A stretch of 64,000 nucleotides of DNA, taken from NCBI GenBank assembly GCA_903917565.1, contig CAIXBB010000018.1, positions 1 through 64,000 of the forward strand. The letters run 5' to 3'. A program made the translations under genes and the position numbers. Below are positions 47,673 through 50,163 of the stretch, piece by piece. Under the pieces are notes generated by a model. The model had not been told where the DNA came from and ran no database searches. It saw nothing but the letters and a program-made list of their open reading frames with translations. Origin of the DNA: an uncultured cyanobacterium (GTDB lineage: Bacteria; Cyanobacteriota; Cyanobacteriia; PCC-6307; Cyanobiaceae). Positions within the stretch are counted from its first letter, which is position 1. Each line of letters starts with the position of its first letter.

Positions 47673-48191
47673 ATGTTCGACGCCTTCACCAAGCTCGTGG
47701 CCCAGGCCGATGCCCGTGGCGAATTCCTGAGCCCCGGTCAGATCGATGCCCTGGGAGCCATGGTGGCCGAGAGCAACAAGCGGATGGACACCGTCAACCG
47801 CATCACTTCCAACGCCTCCAAGATCGTCACCAACGCGGCCCGCGAGCTGTTCGACCAGCAGCCCGCCCTGATCGCCCCCGGCGGCAATGCCTACACCCAT
47901 CGCCGCATGGCCGCCTGCCTCCGCGACATGGAGATCGTGCTTCGGTACATCACCTACGCGATCTTCACAGGCGATGCCTCCGTCCTCGAAGACCGTTGCC
48001 TCAACGGCCTGCGTGAGACCTACCTGGCCCTTGGCGTCCCGGGAGCTGCGGTGGCTGAAGGGATCCGCAAGATGAAGGACGCCGCCATCAGCATCGCCAG
48101 CGATCGCAATGGCATCACCCAGGGAGACTGCACCGCGCTGATGTCCGAAGTGGGCACCTACTTTGATCGGGCTGCTGCCGCGGTCTCCTGA
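47673..48191 (+). CDS. cpcB: Orphan phycocyanin beta subunit (second cpcB)
   Basis: The 172-aa protein is a full-length phycocyanin beta chain: [39 protein letters not shown] with the Cys84-equivalent bilin site and the methylated Asn region, [18 protein letters not shown], and [16 protein letters not shown] with the Cys155-equivalent. It is clearly related to the cpcB at 57036 but differs at many positions, and both chromophore cysteines are kept. There is no cpcA, linker or lyase next to it, unlike normal cpc operons. Its downstream neighbours are amt and a PII gene, hinting at nitrogen-linked expression. It has its own terminator. Confidence 0.93.
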
Positions 48192-48222
48192 TCAGCCCCT
48201 AGATCCGCTCAGCAAGAGAATC

Positions 48223-48253
48223 AAGGCCGGGGACCGCTTCCCGGCCTTTTTTT
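48223..48253 (+). terminator. Rho-independent terminator after orphan cpcB
   Basis: AAGGCCGGG (48223-48231) pairs with CCCGGCC (48240-48246) across a short loop and is followed by seven T residues. It lies 32 bases after the stop codon and should give a monocistronic cpcB transcript. Confidence 0.85.
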
Positions 48254-48283
48254 GTGACCGTTCGCTCGCCAACCGGGAACTTT

Positions 48284-48297
48284 GTTCTATTCGCTAC
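48284..48297 (+). promoter_or_regulatory. Weak NtcA-like site upstream of amt
   Basis: GTTCTATTCGCTAC matches GTA-N8-TAC with one mismatch (GTT for GTA). It lies 66 bases before the amt start, where nitrogen control by NtcA would be expected. The nearest TANNNT element (TAGGTT at 48344) is too far downstream for the usual NtcA-dependent spacing, so this is tentative. Confidence 0.3.
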
Positions 48298-48362
48298 ACA
48301 GAGATGCATCCCCGCAGCGGAAGGTGTCCTCATGAACTTTTCATAGGTTCCCCTCCACCACC

Positions 48363-49811
48363 ATGACCCTGTCTTCCACAGGTCGAGGTCTGTCCGCAGA
48401 GGCAGCCTTCGACCGCTTCCGCTCCCGGGTTCTGGCCCGCTTCCAGGATCCCCAGCTCCGTCGTGCCGCCTTCTGTCTGCTGGCCCTCGGGGCCGGCATC
48501 GGCCCGTTGCTGGCGGGTTCGGCCAAGGCCGCGCTGACCATGGCACCCACCGATGGGGCCGACACCCTGCTGATGCTGGTGGGTTCAGCCCTTGTGCTGC
48601 TGATGACCCCCGGCCTGGCCTTCTTCTACGGCGGCTTCACCCGTTCCAAGAACGTGCTGAACTGCATGATGATGAGCTTCTTTCTGATGGGGCTCATCGG
48701 TGTTCTCTGGGTGGTGATCGGCTACAGCCTTGCCTTTGATACGGGCTTCGGCAGCCCCTTCATCGGCGGCCTCGGCTCGATGTTCCTCCATGGCGTGGGC
48801 GGTGAACTGGGAGACAAGCCGCTGGCCCCGGGATTCCCGATCAGCGCCACCTCCTTCGCACTGTTTCAGTGCATGTTCGCCATCATCACCCCGGCCCTGA
48901 TCTCCGGAGCCCTGGTGGAGAGGATCAGCTTCAAGGCCTGGTTCTGGTTCTGCCTGTTCTGGAGCCTGCTGATTTATTCCCCGATGGCGAAGATGGTCTG
49001 GGGTGGGGGATTCATCGGACCCTTCGGAGCCATCGGTGCCATTGATTTCGCCGGTGGCACGGTTGTTCACATCGCCTCCGGTGTTGCGGCACTGGTGGGG
49101 GCTGCCATCATCGGCCCCCGCACCACCTGGCCCAACAGCAAGCGTCCGCCCCACAATGTGCCCTTCATTCTCCTGGGTGCTGGCCTGCTCTGGTTCGGCT
49201 GGTTCGGCTTCAACGGAGCCAGCATGTTCGCCTCCAAAACGGCCGGCTACCCCTTCCTCACCACCACCACCGCAGCCTCGACAGCCCTGCTCACCTGGTG
49301 CCTGATTGAATGGTTCAAGGACGGCAAACCCACCGCCGTGGGTGCCGCGACCGGCGCCGTGGCGGGCCTGGTGGGGATCACGCCGGCCGCCGGTTTCGTG
49401 GACATGGAGGGTTCGATCCTGATCGGGATCATCACCCCCATCGCCTGCTTCATCGCCGTGCGCATCAAGGGCGCCATCCAGTTCGATGATTCCCTCGACA
49501 CGTTCATGGTGCATGGGGTGGGAGGAACCACCGGTGCGCTGCTGACTGGGATACTGGCCAAGAAGTACTTCGTGCCTGCGGATTACTTCCCTCTTTCGGC
49601 CAAGATCATGGAGGAGTCCGGTAACTTCGGCCTGTTCATCGCCCAGCTCAAGGCCGTCCTGATCACCTACGGGTTCGTTGGTCTCGGTACGGCCATCATC
49701 CTCTGGATTCTCGGTGCCCTGATGCCCCTGCGCGTCAGCGCCGAAGATGAAGAGCGCGGTCTCGACTTCGTGGCTCACGGGGAAGAGGCGTACGATCCCA
49801 TGACCAACTGA
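48363..49811 (+). CDS. amt: Ammonium transporter (Amt family)
   Basis: The 482-aa membrane channel has eleven hydrophobic segments after an N-terminal extension of about 60 residues. Family motifs include [33 protein letters not shown]-like [49 protein letters not shown] and [17 protein letters not shown] (the conserved pore histidine region). It moves ammonium/ammonia into the cell. The PII gene 13 bases downstream is the classical amt-glnK partner that closes such channels. Confidence 0.95.
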
Positions 49812-49824
49812 TTCGCAACCATCC

Positions 49825-50163
49825 ATGAAAATGATCACGGCCATGGTCCGCCCCTCCAAGGTGGACGCCATCAAGACGGCTCTCATCAAGCTCGACATCG
49901 TCGGCATGACCGTCACCGACTCCCGTGGATTCGGTCGGCAGAAGGGCCAGGTGGAGCGCTACCGGGGAACGGAATTCACGGTTGAATTCCTGCCGAAGTC
50001 GAAAATCGAAATCGTCGTCTCCGCTGAAAAGGTTGATGCGGCGATCGCCGCCATCACCGAGGCCGCTCGGACTGGCGAAATCGGCGACGGCAAGCTTTTT
50101 GTCACCCCGGTGGAAACGGTGATCCGGATCCGCACCGGGGAGACCGGCGAAGTCACTCTCTGA
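49825..50163 (+). CDS. PII signal-transduction protein (GlnB/GlnK family) with altered T-loop
   Basis: The 112-aa PII protein shows [19 protein letters not shown], the B-loop [11 protein letters not shown] and the C-loop IRIRTGE. In the T-loop the usual cyanobacterial RYRGSEYTVEF reads [11 protein letters not shown]. The phosphorylated Ser49 is Thr and the uridylylated Tyr51 is Phe, so normal covalent control is probably lost or changed. Trimeric PII senses ATP/ADP and 2-oxoglutarate. As in amt-glnK pairs it should regulate the adjacent ammonium channel. A second, standard GlnB probably exists elsewhere in the genome (inference). Confidence 0.93.

Follow-up and report, generated by a model that had tools for sequence, protein, structure and literature searches.

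The window analysed here, a 64,000-nucleotide stretch of DNA from an uncultured cyanobacterium of the Cyanobiaceae, contains an orphan phycocyanin β gene of the kind reported from picocyanobacteria as 'additional cpcB'. It is an old gene, present in one copy outside the rod region and without an α partner. The orphan is kept by selection and is preceded in several genera by a promoter-like element that main copies of cpcB lack at this place. We read it, with a probability of about one half, as a gene under its own control that supplies additional ordinary CpcB, to be joined by CpcA from the main operon.

An intact β-phycocyanin gene without an α neighbour

The orphan (Table 1) has no internal stop codons. 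Its product scores 320 bits against C-phycocyanin subunit β (TIGR01339), above the NCBIfam equivalog cut-off of 279.3, and its best PDB matches are C-phycocyanin β chains. Cys82, Cys109 and Cys153 are all present, bearing out an earlier note on this DNA, made from the sequence alone, which had described an intact, full-length gene with both bilin cysteines (Cys82 and Cys153). The same note placed the gene alone, with its own terminator, beside amt and an unusual PII gene. No cpcA lies directly downstream, so the orphan does not belong to a canonical cpcBA operon; the terminator hairpin can be recognised in each of the 13 aligned relatives in which this spacer is retained, and amt and PII do follow. 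'Alone' has to be qualified in that the window also holds a divergent cpcBA pair, and the PII is only mildly unusual, with Thr49 where the other PII of the genome (C38:202255) has Ser49, and with Phe51 common to both. Between positions 44000 and 60000 of the window there were no Rfam matches at gathering scores. CpcS and CpcT families are encoded in the same genome (source assembly).

Table 1. Features of the orphan cpcB locus and of the second phycocyanin gene pair in the window
Feature	Position	Strand	Basis
Glutathione S-transferase N-terminal domain gene (GST), divergent neighbour	46255–47550	−	Pfam domain
Promoter-like element: CTCGCA (47610–47615), 17 nt, CCTA (47633–47636); −10-like TAATGT (47635–47640)	47610–47640	+	Exact pattern match
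Orphan cpcB, β-phycocyanin, 172 aa	47673–48191	+	ORF, NCBIfam, residue check, PDB match
Putative terminator of cpcB, Rho-independent type (stem 48223–48248, then T-run)	48223–48253	+	Hairpin scan
NtcA-like site before amt, GTTCTATTCGCTAC	48284–48297	+	GTN10AC pattern
amt, ammonium transporter; separate transcript proposed	48363–49811	+	Name by homology and recall
PII-family regulator, Thr49	49825–50163	+	Domain matches, alignment
Divergent second cpcBA pair, outside the orphan unit; CpcB 78% identical to orphan	56492–57557	−	Sequence search

All 16 residues that we checked for what we take to be chromophore or partner roles, among them Cys82, Cys153 and Asn72, were unchanged across the 48 orphans and the 47 main copies compared. 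The residues that presumably contact the α subunit, including positions 13, 91 and 95, are likewise unaltered, and an AplA-like loss of the ability to join α is therefore not apparent from the sequence. Eight of the 80 columns that are invariant in main CpcB vary in some orphan.

Other phycocyanin genes of the genome

A search of the genome itself returned nine phycobiliprotein-family matches. The divergent pair in the window lies 8.3 kb from the orphan on the opposite strand and consists of cpcA (56492–56983) and cpcB (57036–57557, start counted by hand). It adjoins a family 2A encapsulin shell gene and the gene for its cysteine desulfurase cargo (56492–60615 in all), a neighbourhood also present at two other loci (L048 and L112), and divergent pairs form a separate clade in the coding tree.

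The 46-contig draft lacks the main cpcBA operon only because of an assembly break: contig C13 stops after 86 nt of main cpcB. The end of this contig corresponds to the sequence that flanks the tandem main operon in sister genomes, and the CpcB start on it is of the main type. The cell therefore possesses main phycocyanin genes, to which the orphan is an addition. This rod-region flank is on C13 and the orphan on C18, which places the orphan outside the rod gene region. In six sister loci (L069, L070, L075, L079, L080 and L081) the tandem cpcB copies are identical at the DNA level, and our contig breaks inside the first. As the break within main cpcB shows (end of C13 in our genome G000, locus L162), phycocyanin genes cannot be counted reliably in such drafts.

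The orphan is widespread but dispensable

Within the GTDB genus g1, 41 of 42 genomes had a match at E ≤ 1e-30, paralogues included. Reading coordinates by eye, we found GST and cpcB adjacent without cpcA in 16 of the 25 g1 genomes that were at least 90% complete; in another (G011) the region is cut at a contig end. The remaining eight, among them the complete genome G008, have no such pair, showing that the orphan is dispensable. Named strains with a match include Aphanothece, Cyanobium, Synechococcus and others, and CpcB was found at E ≤ 1e-70 in 127 of 200 genomes of the family.

Copy number was biased towards β. Of the single-contig genomes, 47 had a match; cpcB exceeded cpcA by exactly one in 11 of these and equalled it in 36, and α was never in excess, as counted by eye from a listing with rounded contig numbers and with genomes that are not independent events. 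At 12 fetched orphan loci (those of the 11 single-contig genomes and of G126), no cpcA match at E ≤ 1e-4 lay within about 3 kb on either side. One single-contig genome (G170, L147) carries six tandem, almost identical cpcBA operons.

Selection on the orphan

Nei–Gojobori dN/dS was 0.044 for 16 g1 orphans and 0.124 for 11 main sequences. In nine matched g1 species the values were 0.038 for the orphan (dN 0.0122, dS 0.320) and 0.136 for main cpcB (dN 0.0166, dS 0.122), a comparison of ratios that misleads when taken alone because the main dS is unusually low. We therefore compared dN, which is also lower in the orphan, and the neighbouring genes. In the same nine species, dN/dS was 0.093 for PII, 0.218 for GST, 0.198 for hemN, 0.316 for heme oxygenase and 0.181 for an FAD protein; under our coverage rule fewer species contributed to amt (0.077, six species), L-lactate dehydrogenase (0.134, eight) and DUF2808 (0.233, five). 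The orphan thus has a lower dN/dS than eight neighbouring genes and main-operon cpcB. Orphans had a codon adaptation index of 0.66–0.85 and main copies one of 0.54–0.68; this gives no sign of weak expression, but the reference, 310 codons of the genome's own apcA and apcB, is too small and the index was left out of the argument.

The earlier note took the strong preservation of the gene to show selection, proposed a search of related genomes and a dN/dS comparison with the operon copy as checks, and held that absence from all relatives together with relaxed selection would mark a recent dead-end duplicate. Both checks came out in favour of selection, the orphan being present in near-complete g1 genomes and in other genera and having the lower dN and dN/dS. 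Given a dN/dS of 0.038, an intact reading frame and presence in relatives, the orphan is not a decaying duplicate.

A shared genomic site and scattered coding sequences

In fetched loci of g1, g16, g20, g24 and g26, DUF2808 and GST genes precede the orphan, except that DUF2808 was not seen at three loci (L092, L159 and L160). Three g19 genomes have DUF2808 immediately before the orphan, while a gene for a pyridine nucleotide-disulphide oxidoreductase (Pfam), which we take to be gor, lies 0.94–0.96 kb downstream. gor is 2.9–3.5 kb downstream of the orphan at L063, L066, L085 and L126, and was found at 7 of the 41 loci examined overall. From these arrangements we infer a probable ancestral order DUF2808-(GST)-cpcB-gor. 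Orphans of the g5 type are at another site, with a methyltransferase gene within 1 kb at 12 of 16 loci. At two loci (L071 and L092) the GST site holds full cpcBA and not, as in other genomes, cpcB alone; α was either lost elsewhere or gained at the GST site in these two.

Orphans differ greatly in their similarity to the main cpcB of the same genome. Over 516 nt, six are nearly identical to it (G058, 2 differences; G090, 4–5; G126, 4; G162, 4; G170, 0–1; G215, 1) and six are more diverged (G002, 73; G077, 80; G105, 126; G118, 96; G133, 39; G135, 48–79). At the protein level, 6 of these 12 orphans are the same as main CpcB or one residue off. In g1, orphan and main copies are separated by a dS of 0.29–0.85 and differ consistently at positions 8, 20, 21, 29, 155 and 160, among others, several of them within the first 40 residues.

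A coding tree of 87 rows (excluding 12 loci that repeat genomes, two rows with N, partial and non-172-aa matches, and identical copies) did not recover the orphans as one group. They were scattered among their own lineages, with six changes for GST-site and six for methyltransferase-site orphans. The 16 g1 orphans formed one clade (95/97), and L042 (G018) grouped with the divergent pair. Because coding parts can be near-identical to the main copy while the site and the promoter-like element are shared, the orphans look homogenised, and we read the scattered tree and the near-identity as gene conversion; repeated re-duplication is the alternative.

A promoter-like element before the orphan

Upstream of the orphan is an element that we framed after viewing most of the sequences: CTCGC, usually 17–18 nt, and C(Y)TA at −40 to −72. 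It precedes 42 of 49 orphans (g1 18/18, g5 12/14, g24 5/5, g20 3/4, g26 1/1, g16 1/2, g19 1/3, unplaced 1/2), counting as a miss L151, where the region is clipped and a genome-wide scan did find the element. Only the control with main copies, the genome-wide counts and G159, the tenth of the g5 genomes, are independent of this viewing. Before main or divergent-pair cpcB, the element was present at the same place in 0 of 44 sequences and anywhere within 250 nt in 1 of 44; at random positions it occurred 99 times in 20,000. Of the two GST-site loci with full cpcBA, L092 has it and L071 does not.

In the window, the element before the orphan matches the pattern exactly, and two matches with at most one mismatch compare with 0.59 expected. 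In ten g5 genomes, CTCGCG-N16..19-TAGATT occurred twice in one and once in each of the other nine, as against two matches in the backward control, and in all ten, nine of which had been viewed beforehand, one match was immediately before the orphan. Scanning the g5 genomes with a spacer of 12–17 recovered no orphan and gave one unrelated match versus 59 in the backward control, and a sigma-70-type promoter scan of positions 47400–50400 found nothing. We propose that the element is a promoter. A Shine–Dalgarno-like 4-mer was present in 22 of 24 main cpcB leaders and 0 of 48 orphans; its lack need not mean special control, however, since it is also missing from the neighbours GST (0/12), hemN (0/11) and amt (0/4).

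The nitrogen genes and other neighbours

Among its possible roles for the orphan, the earlier note had listed a nitrogen-regulated substitute subunit. amt and PII adjoin the orphan at most g1 loci, and L085 has an amt–PII pair of the window type (78/73%) between cpcB and gor. Seven loci of g24 and g16 (L062, L063, L066, L126, L130, L132 and L155; L062 and L155 belong to one genome) carry a different PII (52–54%) and a distant amt (28–32%) at the orphan site, a set that looks unrelated to that of the window. The pair thus recurs at the site in three genera, which keeps the nitrogen idea alive. On the other side, a GTN10AC site lies at a fixed place between cpcB and amt in all 17 g1 relatives, a pattern so common by chance that only its fixed place is informative, and this NtcA-like site stands in front of amt. 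The cpcB promoter has no conserved NtcA-like site in these 17 relatives: GTN10AC occurs within 120 nt before cpcB in 7, in 6 of them at −30 to −32, where activation is unlikely. Four of the 17 (L018, L029, L030 and L031) have amt as a fragment or not at all beside an intact cpcB, and in L020 and L022 amt is split between reading frames with cpcB intact. Neither amt nor PII was found beside the orphans of g5, g19, g20 and g26. We therefore regard the nitrogen link as weak.

Genes for an oxygen-independent coproporphyrinogen oxidase (hemN) and a heme oxygenase stand side by side in the window (50315–52888), where an L-lactate dehydrogenase gene and a glycogen-debranching-like ORF are also near the orphan; hemN and heme oxygenase follow PII at most g1 loci. 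At L113 (15733–16797) they are followed by an AcsF-like ORF (by eye), resembling the low-oxygen chlAII-ho2-hemN set. cpcB is not part of the low-oxygen ChlR gene set as described in the accessible text of PMC4500134. We set a low-oxygen role aside as a general explanation, given that orphans of other genera mostly have no such neighbours (hemN is present at L132), and keep it as a possibility for g1.

Discussion

In the reading that we prefer, the orphan would encode ordinary CpcB, which would take phycocyanobilin from the same lyases as main CpcB and join main-operon CpcA in phycobilisome rods, so that selection would keep a separately controlled extra β dose and not a new protein activity. 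That 6 of the 12 orphan proteins match main CpcB fully or to within one residue argues that dose or timing is selected rather than a special protein. The earlier note had also suggested a partner for CpcA under stress; the ability to pair with α appears to be kept, as far as the 16 invariant positions tell. Against the extra-dose reading, if main cpcBA gives α and β one to one, additional β has no obvious partner. ApcF replaces ApcB in the phycobilisome core, and by analogy the orphan product might be specialised, taking the position of normal CpcB at a single point of the rod. The g1 clade with its consistent differences would suit such a role, but the g1 substitutions are conservative and the near-identity of half the orphan proteins to main CpcB speaks against it; we think it rather unlikely. 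A nitrogen-controlled β subunit tied to amt and PII is distinctly unlikely: the recurrence of the pair, including a second, different set in g24 and g16, is offset by the terminator that separates cpcB from amt, the position of the NtcA-like sites, the decay of amt beside intact cpcB and the orphans that have no nitrogen genes nearby.

That β works without α, as a bilin-carrying sensor or sink, would agree with its own promoter-like element and with the 11-to-0 copy bias, and any expression of the orphan necessarily yields a β excess. All checked partner residues are invariant, however, and the accessible text of Six et al. 2007 (PMC2246261) likewise notes conserved α contacts, making this quite improbable. 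An unlikely variant is that a dedicated, nearly single-target element, conserved across genera, frees excess β under one condition, that this β acts alone as an assembly starter, bilin sink or light sensor, and that gene conversion holds its sequence to that of antenna CpcB. Least probable in our view is that the orphan is a functionless leftover from a former cpcBA copy, kept healthy-looking by gene conversion from the main operon. Near-identity to main copies in six genomes, complete cpcBA at the GST site of two loci and the absence of the orphan from some genomes would all be expected of a leftover; the g1 orphan, by contrast, has diverged from main cpcB and yet shows a lower dN/dS than the eight other genes compared there, and the promoter-like element is conserved.

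In the part of the literature covered, Six et al. 2007 is the only report of an 'additional cpcB' that we found, and the accessible text of published expression studies makes no mention of the orphan. cpcBA is a widely used picocyanobacterial marker (as in the accessible text of PMC10808157, for example), and an orphan that possibly exchanges sequence with the operon could mislead trees based on cpcB only.

The lone gene itself is already known. According to the accessible text of Six et al. 2007 (PMC2246261), Synechococcus WH5701 and RS9917 have an additional cpcB that is not accompanied by a further cpcA; the authors left its role open and suggested an AplA-like photoreceptor. Like ours, those genes lie outside the rod region, have no extra cpcA and keep the α contacts; one strain has near-identical copies and the other a diverged one, the same spread that we see here across genera. 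Their report differs in covering two strains only, and the accessible text mentions no promoter element, synteny or selection test. For five freshwater strains of subcluster 5.2, the accessible part of PMC10161378 gives CpcA ++ and CpcB +++ in three, + and ++ in a fourth (CCY0621 by column order, whose locus here is L052) and CpcB only in the fifth; it reports copy number, and does not describe location or orphan state. New relative to these reports, as far as their accessible text goes, are the β-only excess (11 of 47 genomes and never the reverse), the promoter-like element that main copies lack at this place and coding parts that look homogenised.

Known since 2007 from two strains, the lone cpcB now emerges as a conserved locus that can be recognised by its putative control element, and one element together with one gene offers a concrete target for asking why cells want more β than α phycocyanin. 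The lone core-subunit genes apcF and apcD, and the β-phycoerythrin without α of high-light Prochlorococcus, are also phycobiliprotein subunits without a neighbouring partner. Those subunits have diverged from their paralogues, whereas the orphan is ordinary CpcB.
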